DNA of 64,000 nt, taken from positions 372,001-436,000 of the forward strand of contig NZ_JAQOUE010000001.1 of NCBI RefSeq assembly GCF_032191465.1, read 5' to 3'. Each line of letters starts with the position of its first letter. Within the stretch, counting starts at the first letter, position 1. Under the pieces are notes generated by a model, which worked only from the letters and a program-made list of their open reading frames with translations, searched no databases and was not told where the DNA came from. Position numbers and translations under genes: made by a program. Origin of the DNA: Candidatus Nitronereus thalassa. Lineage in GTDB: Bacteria; Nitrospirota; Nitrospiria; Nitrospirales; UBA8639. This document shows, piece after piece, positions 27,683 through 39,362 of this stretch.

Positions 27683-28705
27683 CTAAGTAACTACTCGAGC
27701 TTGATAGACATTCACGACAATACTATGTAGGCCCGTGGCTCCGTTTGGTTGGGGGCGAGTGATCTCCGAGGTTTGGACTTTTCCGGCGGTATCGATCGCG
27801 CGGACAGAAACCATTTTTTTCCCTGCAGGCACATCATTCCAATGATAATTCCACACCACCCAAGACCATGGAGATTGAGGTGGTTCAATCTCGGCCTCCA
27901 CCCAAGTTTTTTCCTGATCCAAGCTTAGCTGGACTTGGGCAATAGAATGGGGACCTCCGAAGGCAATACCCCGGAAGTGAACGTTTGGGCCAGGCACATC
28001 CTGATAATGGCCTGGGCTGTCAATGCGCGAAAAGATGTGGATGGTGCCCTCATCCGTCCATCCCTTGCGTTGCCAATACCCTTGATAGTCACCGTTATAC
28101 ACTTCAATCTCAGTGATCCACTTCACATTCTTAATGCCATAGAGTCCCGGGACCACCAATCGGACAGGAAACCCGTGTTCTTTGGGGAGCTTCTCCCCGT
28201 TCATGAGATAGGCGAGCATTACTTCATCCCGCATGGCACGCTCAAAGGGAATACTATCGTGATAGGCATCCGCCCCACGGAAGATGACATCACGGGCGGT
28301 TTCGGTATCCGCACCCGCTTCAAGTAAAAGTTCTTTCAATGAAATTCCTCGCCAAATGGCATTGCCTATACTCGACCCACCAGGGAGGGTATCAATACAC
28401 ATTAAGGTTGAGATCTGATCAAACGAAGGCCGGTTTAGCAGATCACGCCATTTCAAAACCACTCGATTGCTAACAGCACCTTTCACCACCATCTGCCATT
28501 GTTCCTGGTCCAGATCCCGTGAAAGATTATACGGGGAGTCCATGTAGTTAACCGTGTAGAACTTATCATTTGGCGTAAAGTAAACCGTGTCGCGAGGCGG
28601 AACACCAAACATACTCCCGAGATCACAGCCACTCGTGATACTCGTGAGCCCGGCAAGAGCACCAAGCCCGGTCAGTTTAAATAAATTTCGTCTGGAAATA
28701 TCCAT
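27683..28705 (-). CDS. Tat-exported molybdopterin-dependent oxidoreductase (sulfite oxidase family)
   Basis: The 340-residue product begins with a twin-arginine signal (SRRNLFKLTG at 4-13) and a hydrophobic stretch ending ITSGC, so it may be a Tat-exported lipoprotein with Cys27. The sulfite-oxidase-type molybdopterin domain follows, with the expected molybdenum-ligand cysteine at 103 (STLMCIDT) and the GHGFP-like EHGFPVRLVVPGLYG segment. A Mo-co dimerisation Ig-like domain is at the C-terminus. There is no haem domain, so electrons must pass to a separate cytochrome that is not encoded next to it. The substrate (sulfite, methionine sulfoxide or other) is not determined. It converges on aspS. 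Confidence 0.82.
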   Translation of the reverse strand: MDISRRNLFKLTGLGALAGLTSITSGCDLGSMFGVPPRDTVYFTPNDKFYTVNYMDSPYNLSRDLDQEQWQMVVKGAVSNRVVLKWRDLLNRPSFDQISTLMCIDTLPGGSSIGNAIWRGISLKELLLEAGADTETARDVIFRGADAYHDSIPFERAMRDEVMLAYLMNGEKLPKEHGFPVRLVVPGLYGIKNVKWITEIEVYNGDYQGYWQRKGWTDEGTIHIFSRIDSPGHYQDVPGPNVHFRGIAFGGPHSIAQVQLSLDQEKTWVEAEIEPPQSPWSWVVWNYHWNDVPAGKKMVSVRAIDTAGKVQTSEITRPQPNGATGLHSIVVNVYQARVVT

Positions 28706-28903: not shown

Positions 28904-30412
28904 TCAGGCGGATGGGGAAGTTTTTGCTTCCGGTTCGGCGAGATGTGCTCGGACTTCTTTGACATAGGTTTTGAAGGGGTTCGGCATGGGGAAGGGGGGC
29001 TGGCCACGGAGTTGGAAGATGGACCAGTTGATGACGTAGTGGGGGAAGCGGCGTTCGAGTGACGGCTCGAGGCTTGGGTCTTCGTTCCAATCTTTGCCGA
29101 TGAGTTCTTTCACTAATTCGCTACGTCCAAAGGCGCGGGTGTTGCGAGGAGGGTTTTGCATGGCCAGGTCAATGGCGGTATTGGTGGTGACTCTGGGAGC
29201 ACGGCCTTCTTCTTCCAGACCGAAGTATAGGCTTTTTTCAGGATTCAGATTGTGATATTCCAAGTCTAGGCTTTTCAGCCACGGATCATCCCATTCGAGT
29301 TTTTCTTCTTCTCGAAATGATTCCAAGAGCCAGAGTTTCGATGCCCAGTCCACTCGGCCAACCAGTTTGGTGTAGTCCCCACGAAGATCGTGAAGCACGG
29401 ATTCCCATTGATCCAAGACCCAATCTGTGTCGTCATCTTGCCCGGCGTAGTGATCTTGGGCCGCTTTGAGAAAATCTTCCTGAATATCAATAGCTGATCG
29501 TATTTGACCATTCGCCAACCGGACTTCCCATTTTCTGGTGGGATCACGAGAAATTTCTTTTAAGGCTTGGATGGGTTCCTCTAGTTCTAGGCCAACCGGA
29601 GCATGGCCATCTTCGACGAGTTGCATGACCAAACCGGTGGTTCCCATTTTCAAGGCTGTGGCGACTTCAGCCATATTCGAGTCCCCGAGCAACAAATGGA
29701 TTCGTCGAAATTGATTGGGGTCGGCCAATGGTTCATCGCGTGTGTTAATAATGGCGCGGTTATGTTGGACCCATTCAAAGAAATCGTTCACGATATGGTC
29801 GGCCCGTTGAGATATTTGAAACGGAACGTGGAGACGTCCTTTTTGATCTCGATGTCCAGAGTCTTTGGGCAACAATTGTTCAACCGGAATCCAGCCGTCA
29901 TATATTTCCGCCATCCCGATTCGACCTGCACCGGTGAAAATTTGGCGGGTCACTAAAAACGGAATCAATTTATTTAACCCCTGGAGGTTAAAGGGGAAAT
30001 GGCGCGATACCAGGTAGTTTTCATGACAGCCGAAGGTGGCATCAGTTTCGTGGTCGATATTATTTTTAATGAGTGAAATCTCTTGATCAACATTGAGTTC
30101 CGCCAATGTGCGTTGGAGGAGGCGGTCCCCGGCTCGGTCTGTGGCCACCAGATCGGCGAGCGTGGTGCATTCTGGTGAGGCAAACTCCAGATGTCCCATA
30201 TCGACATAGAGCCGTCCGGAATTCAGTAAAAATCCTCCGTTGCCCGGAGGTTCATCGTATCCACGGTAATGAAGATCGAGCACGCCTTGTTCTCGAATCC
30301 GAAACACCTGATCAATCACACGATGGGCGAGCCACGACGGGGAGTGATCCGGGTCATCGCTATTGATGAGAAGCCCGTATTCTGTTTCAATTCCAAAAAT
30401 TCGATTTAACAT
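28904..30412 (-). CDS. pafA: UBact/Pup ligase (PafA-type)
   Basis: PafA phosphorylates the C-terminal glutamate of the modifier and transfers it to a target lysine. The 502-residue protein opens FGIETEYG (ATP/Mg-binding glutamates) and has the nucleophile-loop aspartate Asp71 in RLYVDMGHLEFASPEC. Other family blocks are IKNNID, FGCHENYLVSR, PFLVTRQIFTGAGRIG and AIINTRDEPLADP. I call it PafA rather than Dop because it lacks the Dop loop before LLNSGRLYVD and is the last gene of the operon, as pafA usually is. It carries an insertion of about 25 residues at 169-195, between GAGRIG and QISQRADH, absent from mycobacterial PafA. It starts 18 bp after prcA, with no clear ribosome-binding site. Confidence 0.9.
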   Translation of the reverse strand: MLNRIFGIETEYGLLINSDDPDHSPSWLAHRVIDQVFRIREQGVLDLHYRGYDEPPGNGGFLLNSGRLYVDMGHLEFASPECTTLADLVATDRAGDRLLQRTLAELNVDQEISLIKNNIDHETDATFGCHENYLVSRHFPFNLQGLNKLIPFLVTRQIFTGAGRIGMAEIYDGWIPVEQLLPKDSGHRDQKGRLHVPFQISQRADHIVNDFFEWVQHNRAIINTRDEPLADPNQFRRIHLLLGDSNMAEVATALKMGTTGLVMQLVEDGHAPVGLELEEPIQALKEISRDPTRKWEVRLANGQIRSAIDIQEDFLKAAQDHYAGQDDDTDWVLDQWESVLHDLRGDYTKLVGRVDWASKLWLLESFREEEKLEWDDPWLKSLDLEYHNLNPEKSLYFGLEEEGRAPRVTTNTAIDLAMQNPPRNTRAFGRSELVKELIGKDWNEDPSLEPSLERRFPHYVINWSIFQLRGQPPFPMPNPFKTYVKEVRAHLAEPEAKTSPSA

Positions 30413-30430: not shown

Positions 30431-31252
30431 TTAATTGGTGGCCTGTTTCAATAACGGCAGCAGAGAATAAATTTCTTGCTGGGAAAGAGTTCGATACTTT
30501 GAACTTCCAGGAGCTTGTCGTTCCAATACCCCACATTCCAACGTTTTATCCTTGAGCCCATTTTGGAGATGTTCCAGAATCTGTTCTTCTGAAAATGAAT
30601 CATTCGATGAGTCCGTTTCTTTGGATTCCGACGAAGAGGATTCAGCATTTTCGTGATACTGATTTTGGGACAGAGCCCCAAGAGCCCAGGTGCGAACTGC
30701 GATGTCGAGAACCGTTTGTAGAGCTACCACAGTCGGAGTGATGTGTTTTTTCAGATAGGCTCGCATGGTGTCTTGAATAATTGGCGTGGCTCCAAGTACA
30801 GCGACCTCATGGTGTTCTTCAAACGTTCCATCATAGTCAACGGTAAAAAAATTATCTTGATTTGGCAGGTTTCCGAGTTCGGCCAAAACGAGTTTTGTGA
30901 TGTAGGGCGCTTTGTAGATCTCTTCAAAGGCCTGTTTGATTGCAGGAGCCAAGCCATATTTGATGAGTCGCGATCCCGTCACATCTCCTGGTGATCGTTG
31001 AAATCCTTCCGTATGCGCCATATCTAAAATGGCAAACCGAAGTTTTTCAAGATCCGCAGGATGCCCCATCCCTCCAAGTCCGATGCGATCGTAAATCTCA
31101 TAGAGTTTCGGGGTGCCATGGCTGGTCGTGAGCAGGATAATCCCGTCCGCATACGAGATGGCAACGAGGGGACTGCCTTGGCGAAATTGATCGTCGAGAT
31201 ATTGGCGTCGATTGCCAACGGCTTCGACCCATCGGTACGGTTCATCATACAT
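30431..31252 (-). CDS. prcA: 20S proteasome alpha subunit
   Basis: Forms the outer rings of the PrcAB barrel, gating entry and docking the ATPase ring. The fold-typical segments are SPLVAISYADGIILLT, the YDRIGLGGMGHPADLEKLR helix-turn, and RSPGDVTGSRLIKYGLAPAIKQAFEE. The N-terminal threonine nucleophile is absent, as expected for alpha. The best start is ATG 31252 (MYDEPYRW), 9 nt after AAAGG and overlapping the prcB stop by 8 bp. The frame also allows a TTG three codons upstream at 31261. The C-terminal tail holds a Ser/Glu/Asp-rich low-complexity stretch (NAESSSSESKETDSSNDS) before a final helical segment. Confidence 0.93.
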   Translation of the reverse strand: MYDEPYRWVEAVGNRRQYLDDQFRQGSPLVAISYADGIILLTTSHGTPKLYEIYDRIGLGGMGHPADLEKLRFAILDMAHTEGFQRSPGDVTGSRLIKYGLAPAIKQAFEEIYKAPYITKLVLAELGNLPNQDNFFTVDYDGTFEEHHEVAVLGATPIIQDTMRAYLKKHITPTVVALQTVLDIAVRTWALGALSQNQYHENAESSSSESKETDSSNDSFSEEQILEHLQNGLKDKTLECGVLERQAPGSSKYRTLSQQEIYSLLPLLKQATN

Positions 31253-32036
31253 ACTGGGCAACCTTTGTCGTGAAGAGCGTTTTCAAATGTTCGGCTGGAA
31301 TGGTTTCTACCCCTTCCTTCGTGATCCGCTTGACGATCGGGTAAAGATTGGCTTCAAAATTGGCACCACCAGTGGCGGAGTCGAACTCAGCGGCGCTGGT
31401 GAGTAATCGCAGGACTATAATAGATGCTTCTTCTTCATCAAGACCAGCGAGCGGTTGGCCACTCCAACGGTTGAGGTAATGGAGGATTCCTCGAATAATG
31501 GACGACCCAGATCCCGACACCGCATGGTCGACGGCTTCAAATTCAGCGCCAAGAATATCATGGAAATAAATTTTTCCACATTCATGTTGGTGGTCATATC
31601 CAGCAAAGACTGGGACCACAGCCCCAGTGCCGGCCAAGGCCGCAGGTGCATTTTCTTTCATGAGCTTTGATAAGGCTCGGAGCTTCCCTTCAAAGCTGAG
31701 ATCTTGAAGTTGGCTCCGTCGGAAATATTTGAACGAATGTTCAAGGACTCTGGCCATTTCAAATGCTGTGGCAGGAACGCCGGCAATGGCCATGACACAA
31801 TAGCGATCGATCTCCAGCACTTTATCTGTGCGGTCATACATGATCATGTTGCCTGCCGTCGCCCGACGGTCGCCGGCAACAAGCACGCCATCACGATATT
31901 TCACGGCTAAAACTGTGGTGCCCTGGGTAATCGACGGAGTTGAAATTTGCCCCTTCTCACCGAATTTCGGCGAGGGGAGTTCGAATTGATAGCCTTGTTC
32001 TTTTAAGAGTTGTAAAAAGTCGCCTTGAAAGCCCAT
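31245..32036 (-). CDS. prcB: 20S proteasome beta subunit (catalytic)
   Basis: The proteolytic subunit of the proteasome. The 263-residue precursor has a 39-residue propeptide; autocleavage after SITQG exposes Thr40 as the N-terminal nucleophile (TTVLAVKYRDGVLVAGDRR). Counting from that threonine, the other catalytic residues fall at canonical places: Asp17 (AGDRR), Arg19 and Lys33 (DRTDKVL). The SGSGSSI segment is also family-typical. It starts 5 bp after the UBact stop, with an AGGGG ribosome-binding site overlapping the end of UBact. The UBact-prcB-prcA trio is therefore probably translationally coupled. Confidence 0.97.
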   Translation of the reverse strand: MGFQGDFLQLLKEQGYQFELPSPKFGEKGQISTPSITQGTTVLAVKYRDGVLVAGDRRATAGNMIMYDRTDKVLEIDRYCVMAIAGVPATAFEMARVLEHSFKYFRRSQLQDLSFEGKLRALSKLMKENAPAALAGTGAVVPVFAGYDHQHECGKIYFHDILGAEFEAVDHAVSGSGSSIIRGILHYLNRWSGQPLAGLDEEEASIIVLRLLTSAAEFDSATGGANFEANLYPIVKRITKEGVETIPAEHLKTLFTTKVAQYV

Positions 32037-32041
32037 GTTGA

Positions 32042-32281
32042 TTATTCCCCTGTGCGTTGTCGGTAGCGTTCTGCCTGTTTGGGATCAACTTTGCGCATGC
32101 GCTTGATCAGATTATCCCGGCTTGGCGATCCTGGTTCTGGTTGGCGCGGCCCGGCATCATCATCTTTTTTGGGCCCGGGTGGTTTAGGGATGGGATCAAG
32201 AGGCCGCTCCCGTCGTTCTAATGTAGTCGGCTGGTTCGTTGGCGTGCTCCCTATCATATAAAACTGATTCTGTGATTTCAT
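32042..32281 (-). CDS. ubact: UBact, ubiquitin-like protein modifier
   Basis: A 79-residue polar, largely disordered protein with the UBact pattern: an ERRERPLDPIPKPPGP N-terminal half rich in Pro and Asp, a DNLIKRMRKVDPKQAERYRQ helix, and the C-terminus RTGE. It takes the position of pup, between dop and prcB, but lacks the Pup GGE/GGQ end. It ends directly in glutamate, so it should not need deamidation by Dop before ligation. The start is secure: AAGGAGG lies 8 nt upstream of the ATG. UBact has been described in Nitrospirota and several other Gram-negative phyla. The internal lysines could serve as chain or attachment sites; that is inference. Confidence 0.93.
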   Translation of the reverse strand: MKSQNQFYMIGSTPTNQPTTLERRERPLDPIPKPPGPKKDDDAGPRQPEPGSPSRDNLIKRMRKVDPKQAERYRQRTGE

Positions 32282-32313
32282 GAGATACCCTCCTTATACC
32301 GAGCTTATCGAAT

Positions 32314-33819
32314 CTATGACGGCATTGAAACCACATCGGCCAGATGCTTGGCATTGTCGATTTTTTGCCAAAGCCGAGTGATGTGAGCCGGATCAAAGAG
32401 GTCAGACATATCTAATTGCTGCGGTTGAGTCAAACTTTTTAGCTGAATCCGTTCCCATTGGACTGATTGAATTTCATGCCGAAACTTCTTTACGCACAAT
32501 CCACGAATTCCCGCTCTGGTCGTCCTCGGCCCTTGCCTCATGGCGGTTTGGATCTCATTTTCTGAGCACAGCCGATGGGCTTTGCCTTCTTGTTCAATTC
32601 CTAGGTACAACCCTCGGTCTGTGTTTACATTATGATACTCGAGATCAAGGCTTGCTAACCAGGGATCGGTCCAGTCTAATTTTTCATCTTGAGCAAATGA
32701 TTCCAAGAGCCAATACTTCGTGATCCAGTCGATTCGTCCAATAAGATCCAAGCGGTTACGTTCTAGAAGCGCAAGGGTCGCTTCCCAATTTCTCAAAATC
32801 CAATCGGTATCGGGATCCTTTTCAGTGAAATGGTGTTTGGCGGCTTCAAGGTAGCCTGTCTGAATTTCCAATCCCGTCAGGGCTTTTCCCGATTGTAGGG
32901 GAATGGTGGCCTTGAGATCATGATCACGTGAAAGCGTCTTTATTGCCTTCACGGGATCGGACAATTGAAATTCGGGTGCCAAGCCTTGTTCAATAAGTTC
33001 GAGTACGAGTTGCGTGGTCCCCACTTTGAGCGCCGTGGCAAACTCACACATATTCGCATCCCCAACAATCAAATGTAGCCGACGATATTTTTGTCGATTG
33101 GCATGGGGTTCGTCTCGGGTATTTAAGATGGGACGGTTGTGCATGGTATCCACGCTCAGGTCCGTTTCCATAAAGTCCGCCCGCTGGGAAAGTTGATAAA
33201 CGCCTGGTTGGTAGGGCTGATCTTGAGCTTCAATGCCAATTTTCCCTGCGCCAGCAAAGATTTGCCGAGTCACGAGAAACGGAATGAGCCCAGAACACAA
33301 CTGATCAAAGGGAAGGTTTCTGGAGATAAGGTAATTATCGTGGCATCCGTAGCTGTGGCCATGCAGGTCGGTGTTGTTTTTGTACAGTTGGACTGCGGAT
33401 GACCCCAGAATTGCATTTCGGGTATCGGCAGCATGTTGGATAATCCGTTCCCCTGCACGATCATGCGCAATGAGTTCGGAAAGGGTCGAACATTCTGGGG
33501 TGGAATATTCCGGATGGGTGTGATCGTTGTAAAATCGAGCGCCGTTGGTCAGGACCAAGTCACTTTTCATTTCGTAAAAGGAAAAGGGGCGATGGGCATC
33601 TAACTCGGCAAACTGTTCTTCTTCGACATCCTGTTGCAGCCCATGGACTCGAAACCCACGCTGGTCTTCGTGTGGATCTTCGCCTTTATAATCCCAGGTC
33701 TGTTCAAACTGCTCGGACATATAGGCACGAACGAGTTCCATGGATTCGACCACAGGATCAGACTGTTTTTGGTCTTCTCGGATAATGCCGTATTCAGTTT
33801 CAATGCCGAATAATCTCAT
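32314..33819 (-). CDS. dop: Depupylase/deamidase-family protein Dop (UBact deconjugase)
   Basis: Dop is a PafA paralogue that hydrolyses the isopeptide bond between modifier and target. The 501-residue product starts MRLFGIETEYG and contains the Dop-specific loop region (about 43-90: DYKGEDPHEDQRGFRV and a variable stretch). The Dop-type block VLTNGARFYNDHTHPEYSTPEC follows, with Asp99 as the expected nucleophile. Shared blocks are LYKNNTDLHGHSYGCHDNYL, FAGAGKIGI and PILNTRDEPHAN. The frame is open 76 codons further upstream, but that extension would run into arc and reads unlike any Dop, so I start at ATG 33819. It is 25 bp after arc and 32 bp before UBact. Confidence 0.9.
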   Translation of the reverse strand: MRLFGIETEYGIIREDQKQSDPVVESMELVRAYMSEQFEQTWDYKGEDPHEDQRGFRVHGLQQDVEEEQFAELDAHRPFSFYEMKSDLVLTNGARFYNDHTHPEYSTPECSTLSELIAHDRAGERIIQHAADTRNAILGSSAVQLYKNNTDLHGHSYGCHDNYLISRNLPFDQLCSGLIPFLVTRQIFAGAGKIGIEAQDQPYQPGVYQLSQRADFMETDLSVDTMHNRPILNTRDEPHANRQKYRRLHLIVGDANMCEFATALKVGTTQLVLELIEQGLAPEFQLSDPVKAIKTLSRDHDLKATIPLQSGKALTGLEIQTGYLEAAKHHFTEKDPDTDWILRNWEATLALLERNRLDLIGRIDWITKYWLLESFAQDEKLDWTDPWLASLDLEYHNVNTDRGLYLGIEQEGKAHRLCSENEIQTAMRQGPRTTRAGIRGLCVKKFRHEIQSVQWERIQLKSLTQPQQLDMSDLFDPAHITRLWQKIDNAKHLADVVSMPS

Positions 33820-33844: not shown

Positions 33845-35578
33845 TTAAATGATGGCTCGATTGATCCGTTCTTCAGTCCGCCGGCCTTTCCTGAATGATG
33901 ATACTCCAATGACTTGATCAGGATGATGATCGAGGAGCTTGAGCCATTCTTCGGCGGAATCATCTGGCGGAAGAATTTCGCCCTCACGGAATTCATCATC
34001 AATGGATTGGAGCATGTCCTCCAGTGTGAGACCATGGGCTTGTTCATTGATGGCTCGTTCGATTGCCCGTTCTTTGGCTCTTCGGGCCAGTGAGGCCAAG
34101 ATGGCGCCGCTGATCAAGTCACGACGATACAGGGTTTCCTGTTTGCCATTTCGTAATCGAATACTCAGTACTCGTGTCTCGTCAGACTTTTTAAACAATT
34201 GTTCGATGGTTTCTTGAATGAGCGCGTCACAGGCGTTATCAGCGTTCTGCCCATGGGCCGCGAGAAATTCTTCAGAAAGTGGGAGCGTGGGTGTCAGGTA
34301 GATTTGAAGAATCTCCTGCGCTTCTTGTCGATCCGGCCGTTGCACTTTAATCTTTCGATCGATCCGCCCTGGACGTAAGACCGCGGGGTCAATGAGGTCG
34401 GGACGGTTCGAAGCTACGATGACCACCACATCTTGCAGCGAGTCGACACCATCGAGTTCTGCACAAAACATGGGAACCAGGGTGTTCGCGATATTATAGG
34501 AGCGAACGGCGCGACGAGTGCCTAAAATCGATTCCGCTTCATCAATGAAAAGGAAGGGGAGCAGGCCTTCCTTTCGTCGTTCGCGCGCCTGCATAAATAA
34601 ATCTCGAATGATGCGCTCGGATTCACCCACCCACATATTCAACACTTCTGGGCCTTTGACATGAAGAAACGTTCCACCGGTAATCGGAGGTAGTTGACTT
34701 TTGGCCGAATCTTTTGGCTCGGCCACCTGGTGTTGAGCGACAATGTTGGCCAAACTGGCTGCCGTGGCTTTTCCAATCAGCGTTTTTCCGCACCCCGGAG
34801 GGCCATAGAGAAGAAACCCTTTGGGTTGGGTAAATTGATAGGCTTCAAAAGTTTTGGCGTGCAAGAGCGGATATTCAATCGCGCGCCGAATGGCATCAAT
34901 CGCGTCTTGTTGTCCACCGATTTGTTCCCAGGTGACATCCGGTATTTCATCGAGCGCATGTTTGCTGCTTTGAGTATTTTCTATTCGTTCGATTCCTAAT
35001 CGATGAGTGGGATCGAGTCGGATTTCATCTCCTGGTTTGATTGGTAGGTCTTGTAATTTGAAAGCCAGGTCAATCAATTGCCCAGGTCGTCCAGCCTCAG
35101 AATCAAGGCGCACCCTTCCATCAGATAACAATTCTTTCACTTTGACAATTGGGCCATTCCGATCAAATCCTAATGTGCCAATGAGTGCATAGGCTTCGTT
35201 GACTAAGACCTGTGCGCCAATCTCAAGGTCATCGGATGGCAATTGGGGGTCGATATTGGCATAGAACTCGTTGCCTCCTACGGAAATGCGAGCGACGCCT
35301 TCCGCGGGTTTATCAATTAAGGTGCCAATGCGATTCGCCGGGGCAGTCAGTTTTTCAACCACACTGTGGAGTTTTTTGATTTCCGCTTCACGTTCTTGTT
35401 GCGAAACCCCTTCTTGCAACAGTTGATGACGAATCTTATACAGCAGCTTTTGTTGAGGCGCTTCTTCCGGCAGCGTAGCTAAGCATTCATCAAGCAGCAC
35501 AAGTGGATCCGTCTTGGTCGGTGGCTCTCGCAATGGTGGTGTGTCCTCGGGTATGTGCGATGGTTTTCGATCACTCAT
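33845..35578 (-). CDS. arc: Proteasomal AAA+ ATPase ring ARC/Mpa
   Basis: Hexameric ATPase that recognises the modifier, unfolds the target and feeds it to PrcAB. In the 577-residue product, a helical, probably coiled-coil segment (about 40-80) precedes two OB-fold interdomains (about 88-205). The AAA domain has Walker A GPPGCGKT (259-266), a pore-loop region near LNMWVGESE (313-321) and Walker B FLFIDEAES (342-350). Sensor and arginine-finger regions follow (IVASNRPDLIDPAVLRPGRID). The C-terminus reads ERINRAII and lacks the GQYL-type tail with penultimate Tyr that mycobacterial Mpa uses to open the alpha ring. It is the first gene of the operon. Confidence 0.93.
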   Translation of the reverse strand: MSDRKPSHIPEDTPPLREPPTKTDPLVLLDECLATLPEEAPQQKLLYKIRHQLLQEGVSQQEREAEIKKLHSVVEKLTAPANRIGTLIDKPAEGVARISVGGNEFYANIDPQLPSDDLEIGAQVLVNEAYALIGTLGFDRNGPIVKVKELLSDGRVRLDSEAGRPGQLIDLAFKLQDLPIKPGDEIRLDPTHRLGIERIENTQSSKHALDEIPDVTWEQIGGQQDAIDAIRRAIEYPLLHAKTFEAYQFTQPKGFLLYGPPGCGKTLIGKATAASLANIVAQHQVAEPKDSAKSQLPPITGGTFLHVKGPEVLNMWVGESERIIRDLFMQARERRKEGLLPFLFIDEAESILGTRRAVRSYNIANTLVPMFCAELDGVDSLQDVVVIVASNRPDLIDPAVLRPGRIDRKIKVQRPDRQEAQEILQIYLTPTLPLSEEFLAAHGQNADNACDALIQETIEQLFKKSDETRVLSIRLRNGKQETLYRRDLISGAILASLARRAKERAIERAINEQAHGLTLEDMLQSIDDEFREGEILPPDDSAEEWLKLLDHHPDQVIGVSSFRKGRRTEERINRAII

Positions 35579-35808: not shown

Positions 35809-37956
35809 ATGGATAATCCTTATTCCTCGTGCACCTCTTCCCTGCTTCAGGCGATTGTTGATGCACAGTCATGCTTTATCAGGGCCCAAAGTATTAGTCA
35901 AAGTTTTCAGGTTTTACTGAATAAACTACTAGCCATCACCCAAAGTGACTCCGGAATTATTGGGGAAGTATTAGAGTCCGAAGATGGAGCCCCATATTTT
36001 CAGGCCCATTCGATTTCCCATCTGACATGGAATGTGGAACCCCAACATCTCAATACCCACCCTGATCAAAATTTACGGTCCACGAATTTCGAGACGGTCT
36101 TTGGAAAGGTGATCTTATCCGGACAGCATGTGATCGACAACCATCCAGATCAGGATGATCCTTGGGTAACCATAGACGATCATCCAATTGCAGCATTTTT
36201 AGTAGTGCCGTTTTATTATGGTGATACTCTGGTTGGGATGGCAGGTATGGCCAATCGACCAAGTGGGTATGATGAAGCGCTCGTCGAGTTTTTGCGACCC
36301 CTGCTTGCGGTATGTGGAACCTTAATTGCGGCGAATCGGAACAAGCAAACTAGGAGTTACGCTGAAAGAGCACTTCAGGAAAGCGAAGAACGATTTGAGC
36401 TCGCGGTATGGGGTTCGAATGATGGAATTTGGGATTGGCCTAATATTCAAGAAGATAAGGAATGGTGGTCTCCACGGTTTTATGATTTGCTGGGATACGA
36501 GTTCGAAGAGATAACTCCTAGTTTACAAACTTTTAAAGAACTGTTGCATCCTGAGGAGCGAAATCGAGTCTTCGTTGCGGTGCAAAACCATTTTGAGAAA
36601 GACCTTCCATTTGACGTCGAATATCGCCTGCAGACGAAATCAGGGGCCTATCGATGGTTTAGGGCTCGTGGGAAGTCGGTCAGAAATCAGCAAGGAGTGA
36701 TCACCCGAATGGCCGGGTCAATTCAAGATATTCATGACCAACGACAGGCCGAAAGGGCGATGTGTGAAAGTGAGGCACGATTCCGCACCATGGCCGATAC
36801 CGCTCCAGTGCTCATTTGGATGTCTGATTCTGAAAAGAACTGCACCTATGTCAATCAAAGGTGGTTAGATTTTACCGGCCGGACCCTTGAACAGGAATTA
36901 GGAATGGGGTGGATCGATAATGTGCATCCTGAGGATCAGCAAAGGTGTTTGCCTATCTGCGAGGCTGCTTTTCAAAGTCACACCCCCATGGAGATGGAAT
37001 TTCGGCTAAAACATAAGAAAGAAGGATATCGATGGGTCATTGATCGGGGTGTGCCTCGGTTTAATTCAGATGGACAGTTTCTTGGATTTATTGGAACCTG
37101 TGTTGATATTTCTGGACAAAAACAGCATGAACAAGCGATTTTTCGTTATAATCGTTGGCTTCAAAAAGAAATTGAGGAACGTACGATTCGCATTCATGAG
37201 TTGGAGCAACGACGCATGCAGGTGGAAAAACTTGCGGCACTGTCCCAGGTGACTGCGGGCATTGCCCATGAGATCAATAACCCTCTGGCGAGTATTCAAC
37301 AGTCACTTCAGCTGGTGAAACAAATCATTCCCATGGACCATCCTCGGGCAAAGTATGTGCCAAAAATTGAACAAGAGATTCATCGAATGGCCACAATCAT
37401 CAAGCAGATGTACCAACTCTATCAGCCACGCCAGGAATTTCCTCGATTACTCAACCTCAATCAGATCGTCAAAGATGCCAGTGATTTCATTGTCAATCTT
37501 CACAAAAATGGTCATGGACAAATACATTTGGATTTGTTCAATGGCATGTATGATCTGCCCCTCCCGGCGACTGAACTGCGTCAGGTGCTCTGTAATGTGT
37601 TACAAAATGCATTCGATTCGGTGGAGGTGCATGGACGGGTGGTGGTTCGTACAGGAATGAATGCGGGGACGGCTTGGATTCAGATACAAGACGATGGAGC
37701 GGGTATCAGTCCTGATGTTCTTTCTCATATTTTTGAACCCTTCTATTCTACGAAGGTTAATATGAAAAGGAATGGGATGGGGTTGGGTCTATCCGTTTCC
37801 AAAAGCCTACTCGAAGCCATGGGAGGGAAAATTCAGGTTTCCTCCACTCTTGGGAAAGGGGCGACGTTTACTATCTCGTTTCCCTTGCCCCTGGTTCCCA
37901 CATATTCCACTCCTCCAGAAGAGAGTGTCTCCAGAGTTCTTAAGCCAATATCCTAA
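35809..37956 (+). CDS. Sensor histidine kinase with GAF and two PAS domains
   Basis: A 715-residue cytosolic sensor kinase with no transmembrane segments visible. An N-terminal GAF domain (about 15-185, with PFYYGDTLVGMAGMANRP) is followed by two PAS/PAC units (about 195-315 and 325-445). A coiled coil (IEERTIRIHELEQRRMQ) leads to the HisKA box with phospho-acceptor His487 in AGIAHEINNPLASI. The HATPase has the N box (LCNVLQNAFDSV), G1 (DDGAGI), F box (FEPFYSTK) and G2 (GMGLGLSVSKSLLEAMGGK). The H box resembles NtrB-type kinases. No response regulator is adjacent, so it is an orphan. It is divergent from arc across a 230 bp gap. Confidence 0.9.
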   Translation: MDNPYSSCTSSLLQAIVDAQSCFIRAQSISQSFQVLLNKLLAITQSDSGIIGEVLESEDGAPYFQAHSISHLTWNVEPQHLNTHPDQNLRSTNFETVFGKVILSGQHVIDNHPDQDDPWVTIDDHPIAAFLVVPFYYGDTLVGMAGMANRPSGYDEALVEFLRPLLAVCGTLIAANRNKQTRSYAERALQESEERFELAVWGSNDGIWDWPNIQEDKEWWSPRFYDLLGYEFEEITPSLQTFKELLHPEERNRVFVAVQNHFEKDLPFDVEYRLQTKSGAYRWFRARGKSVRNQQGVITRMAGSIQDIHDQRQAERAMCESEARFRTMADTAPVLIWMSDSEKNCTYVNQRWLDFTGRTLEQELGMGWIDNVHPEDQQRCLPICEAAFQSHTPMEMEFRLKHKKEGYRWVIDRGVPRFNSDGQFLGFIGTCVDISGQKQHEQAIFRYNRWLQKEIEERTIRIHELEQRRMQVEKLAALSQVTAGIAHEINNPLASIQQSLQLVKQIIPMDHPRAKYVPKIEQEIHRMATIIKQMYQLYQPRQEFPRLLNLNQIVKDASDFIVNLHKNGHGQIHLDLFNGMYDLPLPATELRQVLCNVLQNAFDSVEVHGRVVVRTGMNAGTAWIQIQDDGAGISPDVLSHIFEPFYSTKVNMKRNGMGLGLSVSKSLLEAMGGKIQVSSTLGKGATFTISFPLPLVPTYSTPPEESVSRVLKPIS

Positions 37957-38072: not shown

Positions 38073-39362
38073 TCATGCCGATTTGCGGATTAATTGTGGT
38101 GTGGTTTCTCCACGGATAACAGCATCGGTGATGACCACTTCTTGAATCCCTTCCAAGGCTGGTGTGTCGTACATCAAGTTCAACATTTTTTCTTCAAGGA
38201 TACTTCGGAGGGCCCGAGCGCCGGTTTTGAGCGACGCCGCTTTGTGGGCAATAACTTGAATTGCCTCATCGGTAAAGACCAGATCAATCCCGTCAAGTTC
38301 AAATAACGCACGATATTGTTTCACCAGGGCATTTTTGGGTTCGGTTAGGACGCGAACTAAATCGGCTTCGCTCAAGTCGGTAAGCGTGGTCATAATGGGA
38401 AACCGTCCGACGAATTCTGGGATTAACCCATACTTGAGCAGATCTTCTGGTTGCACGAGCTGGATTAAATCACTGGCATGGGACTGGCTTTGCGCTTCGG
38501 GGCTTGCACCAAATCCGAGGCGTTTATGACTCGTGCGTTGGGAGATAATTTGATCCAAACCGACGAATGCACCACCACAGATGAACAATATATTTTTGGT
38601 GTTAATACGAATGTATTCTTGATCGGGATGTTTTCGTCCGCCTTTGGGAGGAATATTACAAGTAGTGCCTTCAACAAGTTTCAATAACGCTTGTTGTACA
38701 CCCTCACCCGAAACATCCCGGGTAATGGAGGCACTTTCTGACTTTCGGCTAATTTTGTCGACTTCGTCAATATAGATAATCCCAGTTTCCGCCCTCTTGG
38801 CATCAAAATCACAAGATTGAAGAAGTTTTAATACAACGTTTTCAACGTCTTCGCCCACGTATCCTGCTTCAGTGACAGTAGTGGCATCTGCAATCGCAAA
38901 CGGTACTTGAAGTAGGCGCGCCAAGGTTTGAGCCATTAAGGTTTTGCCTGTACCGGTCGGGCCAATCAGCAGCACATTACCCTTTTCGAGCTCGACATCC
39001 TTGATTTCTTTCCCACTGAATACGCGCTTGTAGTGGTTATGAACGGCAACGGCCAGCACTTTTTTCGCTTGTTCTTGTCCAATGACATATTGGTCCAGAA
39101 TAGCCTTGATCTCTGGCGGGCGTGGCAATTGAAAATTCGGTGGTGGAGAAGGGGCTTCTGCTTGTTTAGGGGAGTGCTCTGCGAGAAACCTTCCGCAGAG
39201 TTGAACGCATTCGTTGCAAATCAACAGGGTACTGTCGTTCCTACAAGTACCGCAGGTATATTTCGAAGGACTTTGAATAAAACCTGAGACGGCATTTTGT
39301 GCCCGTCCACAGAATGAACAGGTTGGATCAGAGGTCCCTTGTTTTGAATCCCAAAAAGGCAT
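38073..39362 (-). CDS. clpX: ATP-dependent Clp protease ATP-binding subunit ClpX
   Basis: AAA+ unfoldase that feeds ClpP. The 429-residue product has an N-terminal zinc-binding domain, Walker A ([14 protein letters not shown]), Walker B ([11 protein letters not shown]), a pore loop in the [12 protein letters not shown] region, the [11 protein letters not shown] segment, an IGF-like loop (KRLGFGA) and the RIPEF-like [10 protein letters not shown]. The zinc domain is unusual: besides CSFC (15-18) and CNEC (49-52) there is an additional CGTC (37-40). No clpP or tig flanks it here. The start has GAAGGA about 8 nt upstream. It converges with the kinase gene. Confidence 0.93.

Follow-up and report, generated by a model that had tools for sequence, protein, structure and literature searches.

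The open reading frame at 32281–32042 on the minus strand of the window (the whole 64,000-nucleotide stretch of DNA analysed here) encodes UBact, a Pup-like small protein modifier, and the same genome carries, as judged from its gene content, a second and complete Pup tagging-and-destruction system. UBact probably attaches to other proteins and marks them for destruction, and this attachment is predicted to be covalent and to lysines. UBact and Pup likely constitute two largely separate tag-enzyme-proteasome lines, and we are fairly confident of the explanation as a whole, namely that a ready-made UBact-Glu would be handled by a PafA1/ARC1/Dop1 pathway, with a largely separate Pup pathway alongside.

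The UBact gene and its operon

The UBact gene starts with an ATG at 32281 and ends with a TAA at 32042, and its product passes both curated family cut-offs (Pfam PF20513, E-value 5e-19; NCBIfam NF033388, E-value 1e-19), matches that are beyond chance. The Pup profile PF05639 does not match it at E ≤ 0.001, and the protein ends in RQRTGE, with the RTG[E/Q] C-terminus of the UBact family, rather than in the QKGG[E/Q] of Pup. The profile matches bear out the identity assigned in a sequence-only reading of this DNA, which had also correctly described an RTGE ending encoded by GAA and TAA (leaving out the strand), three lysines near the C-terminus, and a Pro/Asp-rich N-terminal half, which is Lys-rich as well. 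The C-terminus reads ...RYRQ-RTGE (codons CGC ACA GGG GAA TAA), the three lysines K60, K64, and K68 all lie within the final 24 residues, and residues 56–75 are DNLIKRMRKVDPKQAERYRQ.

The UBact family is associated with Lehmann et al. 2017 (PMID 28087277). This work on UBact is cited in PMC12751074; it lay outside the literature searched here, in which no biochemical data were found for any UBact.

The gene is part of a minus-strand operon in the order ARC1, Dop1, UBact, PrcB1, PrcA1, PafA1, containing the proteasome subunits, ARC, and two Pup-ligase homologues that accompany UBact family members. The ARC-Dop-UBact-PrcB-PrcA-PafA order recurs in nearly every related locus long enough to show it. 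The features are as follows.

33845..35578, minus strand: ARC1, proteasomal AAA ATPase, without the GHYF/L C-terminal motif of Pup-system ARC and with a different N-terminal region
32314..33819, minus strand: Dop1, predicted UBact deconjugase/deamidase (TIGR03688, 478.0 bits, below the equivalog cut-off of 492.3), with the Dop-loop and its Trp kept
32289..32295, minus strand: Shine-Dalgarno sequence AAGGAGG, 7 nt upstream of the UBact ATG, rank 1 of 50 by anti-SD duplex energy
32042..32281, minus strand: UBact modifier gene, 79 aa (PF20513, 68.1 bits, cut-off 27.8; NF033388, 70.5 bits, cut-off 35)
31245..32036, minus strand: PrcB1, proteasome beta subunit, with the catalytic Thr (GTTVLAVKY)
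30431..31261, minus strand: PrcA1, proteasome alpha subunit, by profile matches
28904..30412, minus strand: PafA1, predicted UBact ligase, without a full Dop-loop, with the catalytic Asp kept and the alpha-loop Thr-Thr changed to Val-Gln

Dop1, the start of which was set at MRLFGIETEYG, has the properties of a Dop, i.e. an insert of ~80 residues, Asp99 (in 143/143), and Trp42 (invariant in 28/28). Like Dop1, the products PafA1, ARC1, PrcB1, and PrcA1 all miss the NCBIfam equivalog cut-offs of the actinobacterial-type families. ARC1 ends in an NQII/RAII-like sequence and not in GHYF/L, although a 20S core is encoded in its operon. The neighbouring genes look by sequence like those for a sulfite-oxidase-like protein (27683–28705), a PAS histidine kinase (35809–37956), and ClpX (38073–39362), and through this ClpX-like neighbour the UBact operon adjoins the unfoldase of another protease.

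The AAGGAGG upstream of UBact had been singled out as one of the best ribosome-binding sites in the window, and by anti-SD pairing it comes first of 50 genes, with a predicted duplex energy of −11.6 kcal/mol (runner-up −9.4). The corresponding values in the same operon are −3.0 for ARC, −0.9 for Dop, −6.5 for PrcB, +0.1 for PrcA, and +0.7 for PafA. A strong Shine-Dalgarno sequence is a family-wide trait of the tag gene, the median best values being −8.4 for UBact and −13.4 for Pup versus −3.3 for Dop1 and −3.2 for PafA1, and such a site would keep the consumable UBact in excess over its enzymes.

The C-terminal tail of UBact

We compared the tail across 104 UBact genomes within a sample of 296 Nitrospirota genomes. 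The last residue is E in 82 and Q in 22 of the 104, with no other residue present (codons GAA 43, GAG 39, CAA 11, CAG 11), and Q69, E71, Q75, R76, T77, and G78 are invariant. The homologue alignment proposed in the sequence-only reading thus finds that E is not fixed, and a consistently different C-terminus is not what the homologues have, as 104/104 end in RTGE or RTGQ. On a PrcB+Dop tree of 137 loci the E/Q state changes at least 15 times; shuffled labels gave 20–22 changes among the five values listed. The control codons Q69, E71, and Q75 show 23, 25, and 34 third-base changes on the same tree and zero E/Q swaps, which marks the exchange as a peculiarity of the last residue. Within the family of the window, the ending is E in 9/9 sampled UBact genomes.

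The simplest reading of this pattern suggests that Dop retains deamidase ability across the UBact family, which would make E and Q equal such that neither becomes fixed. The E ending is thus a reversible state and not a special design, a common state that is ordinary by itself. The UBact described here needs no deamidation, as had been claimed, since its Glu is encoded (GAA). The accompanying claim of a Dop confined to deconjugation follows in this genome from the parallel with Pup-Glu species, which retain Dop as depupylase (PMC3511204, PMC12288473), but must be qualified at family level, given the 22/104 that end in Q and the repeated switches. Neither UBact nor its E/Q ending departs from published knowledge. 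A G[EQ] ending had already been noted for Pup relatives, including those of Nitrospirae, by Iyer et al. 2008 (PMC2588565).

The lysines had raised the possibility of UBact chains, in which a second UBact would be accepted on K60, K64, or K68 to give poly-UBact on substrates, as with ubiquitin. All three are within the last 24 residues and at least one of them is kept in 104/104 genomes, and in vitro M. smegmatis PafA attaches Pup chains to itself (PMC4783102). If one of these lysines built chains it should be invariant, however, and none is: K60 is absent in 18/104 (replaced by D, E, or Q), K64 in 7/104 (R or Q), and K68 in 7/104 (N), and conservation thus lends the idea no support. R and K exchange freely at position 63, so the feature being maintained seems to be positive charge, and the lysines fall in the segment whose Pup counterpart folds into the groove of the enzyme. 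Pup modification in vivo is as a rule mono-pupylation (PMC4783102, PMC12288473), substrate polypupylation in vivo is not established (PMC12288473), and we regard UBact chains as highly improbable. The GE-type remnant suggested as a mass-spectrometric signature also requires revision, as trypsin would cut last at Arg76 and leave TGE; the expected lysine remnants are TGE (+287.11 Da) for UBact and GGE (+243.09 Da) for Pup.

Two tag systems in one genome

A Pup-ligase-family (PF03136) search of the window's genome returned four genes, two of them in the UBact operon and two further ones. The second system is organised as a Pup-type operon on the same contig as the UBact operon, ~210 kb away from it, and a pup gene on another contig:

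L186 5649–12026 (G000:C1): ARC2-Dop2-PrcB2-PrcA2-PafA2 operon of canonical Pup type, pup not inside, all products above the NCBIfam equivalog cut-offs
L242 8072–7869 (G000:C2): Pup gene (MEKQ...QKGGE) beside recJ and relA, matching PF05639 and ending in QKGG[E/Q]

Relocation of pup beside recJ is common to the sampled Nitrospirales (in genus g5 it is beside relA), and in other classes of the phylum pup is between Dop2 and PrcB2. The second complete system was missed by the sequence-only reading. The point deserving attention is that two complete tag-proteasome systems occur together; no report of UBact and Pup systems together was found in the literature searched, and Lehmann et al. 2017 may mention it.

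Both tags are widespread in the 296 sampled Nitrospirota genomes, UBact being present in 104 and Pup in 138 (97 with both, 41 with Pup only, and 7 with UBact only). Nitrospira moscoviensis (L143) and N. defluvii (L131) each contain UBact, Pup, and four ligase genes, and their proteomes are therefore searchable for two different lysine remnants. UBact is found in 29/49 genomes of the window's family, and genus g2 of that family (14 small genomes, G065, G081, and G179 among them) has Pup and type-2 enzymes only and no UBact. The enzyme pair tracks the tag: dual genomes have four genes, the Pup-only G081 has two type-2 genes, and the UBact-only G019 (one contig, 99% complete) has two type-1 genes, Dop1 and PafA1, and no others. 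G066, also UBact-only, has type-1 enzymes only, and the four ligase genes of G181, counted as UBact-only, make it probable that a pup gene there was overlooked. A rule linking the UBact and Pup endings within a genome was considered and rejected (UBact and Pup respectively: EE 53, QE 19, EQ 9, QQ 0; n=81), as there are too few Pup-Q cases and the genomes are too related.

Several individual loci depart from the general pattern. The Pup at L244 (G179) has an insertion ahead of the tail and scores 43 bits only (...KENAAEFVKNNVQKGGE), and the genome bin G069 contains pup twice (C16, C135). At C1:67247–67291 of G300 there is a UBact match over the last 15 residues only, near a PafA1-like gene, a possible divergent tag. 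A second UBact-like match in G141 (26 bits, below the cut-off and off the stop codon) was dismissed as a chance match, and a search for UBact in viral contigs confirmed none.

PafA1 is likely the UBact ligase, because the UBact-only G019 has only Dop1 and PafA1, one of which must ligate. Its assignment is complicated by scores that favour Dop over PafA (NCBIfam 340.6 vs 323.6, the latter below the TIGR03686 equivalog cut-off of 551.3 bits; PDB 275.8 vs 219.9; best Foldseek match Dop), as would fit a second Dop-like hydrolase with UBact conjugated by PafA2. The alpha-loop of PafA1 (VNDFFEWVQHNR) points the same way, as the Thr-Thr of both families is replaced by Val/Ile-Gln, with an invariant Trp of its own, in 103/103 orthologues, and the two threonines matter in PafA (PMC7947786, the source of the Thr-Thr...Arg positions); the active-site Arg of this loop and the catalytic Asp are kept in 103/103. 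Nevertheless, PafA1 is without the Dop-loop Trp and has no full Dop-loop, the region spanning 54 residues versus 80 (Dop1) and 68 (Dop2). In fold models the PafA1 alpha-loop contains a helix, as in PafA, and that of Dop1 does not, weak evidence since the pLDDT of the helix is below 50. With G019 weighed in, a hydrolase role for PafA1 appears quite improbable.

The tags could also be interchangeable, with PafA2/Dop2 using UBact as well or PafA1/Dop1 using Pup. Counterparts of the two systems in this genome are 32–43% identical, and the enzyme sets 41–43%, which leaves room for cross-reaction; pairwise identities among Dop1, PafA1, Dop2, and PafA2 are 41–48%, and 42 columns are invariant across the four, the catalytic Asp and active-site arginines among them. 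The tails, however, are of opposite charge (median net charge over the last 24 residues +4, range 2 to 5, for UBact and −5, range −7 to 0, for Pup), and the enzymes of the UBact system carry more negative charge (−22/−23 for Dop1/PafA1 vs −10/−8 for Dop2/PafA2), with 16 alignment columns in which a charge difference is common to both enzymes of a system. Moreover, presence of an enzyme pair matches presence of its tag across the sampled genomes, and the ARCs differ at both ends, the GHYF/L terminus being present in ARC2 only and the N-terminal region being where Mpa binds Pup. The four enzymes form four clean clades with Dop1+PafA1 split from Dop2+PafA2 (support 96/94), and this separation together with the difference in tail charge makes two largely separate pathways likely, on sequence grounds, and interchangeable tags rather unlikely. 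An AU test does not reject one ancient Dop/PafA duplication (p = 0.14), and separate origins are therefore not claimed.

In the favoured pathway, UBact would be made with a ready-to-use C-terminal glutamate, and PafA1 would phosphorylate the gamma-carboxylate of Glu79 with ATP and join UBact to a substrate lysine. ARC1 would then grip the conjugate through the presumably disordered N-terminal half of UBact and thread it into the PrcA1/PrcB1 20S core, with Dop1 cutting UBact off for reuse and, in sister lineages with UBact-Gln, presumably deamidating it too. This pathway would operate beside the complete Pup pathway (ARC2-Dop2-PrcB2-PrcA2-PafA2, with pup elsewhere), most likely as a largely separate line. 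A broader version, to which we give somewhat less than even weight, is that many Nitrospirota including cultured Nitrospira run the two pathways in parallel, separated by charge-complementary tails and grooves, and that the UBact ligase uses a remodelled alpha-loop and may trace back to a ligase/hydrolase divergence distinct from the one between PafA and Dop. Dual systems within a single bacterium would make it possible to probe directly the mutual recognition of tag, ligase, deconjugase, and unfoldase, the second system serving as a natural control.

Comparison with known systems

The gene has no family-defining difference from UBact: both cut-offs are passed, the end is RTG[E/Q], the operon contains ARC, Dop, PrcB, PrcA, and PafA, and E is the more frequent of the two endings. 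The Pup of Actinobacteria (PF05639) is likewise small, with a low-complexity N-terminal part, is served by Dop and PafA homologues, and has its gene between dop and prcB. It ends in G-G-[E/Q] whereas UBact ends in T-G-[E/Q] and is without the QKGG motif, and the UBact tail is basic (+4) where that of Pup is acidic (−5).

Dop1 and PafA1 resemble Dop and PafA (TIGR03688, TIGR03686) in the glutamine-synthetase-like fold, catalytic Asp, and active-site arginines, and Dop1 also in the Dop-loop and its Trp. They differ in that both fall below the equivalog cut-offs and PafA1 has its own conserved alpha-loop (F..W-V-Q.NR). To our knowledge, Corynebacterium glutamicum is without a 20S proteasome, which in contrast is present in the operon described here. 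The two are alike in that C. glutamicum Pup-Glu is also a Glu-encoded tag for which dop is still kept for deconjugation (PMC3511204).
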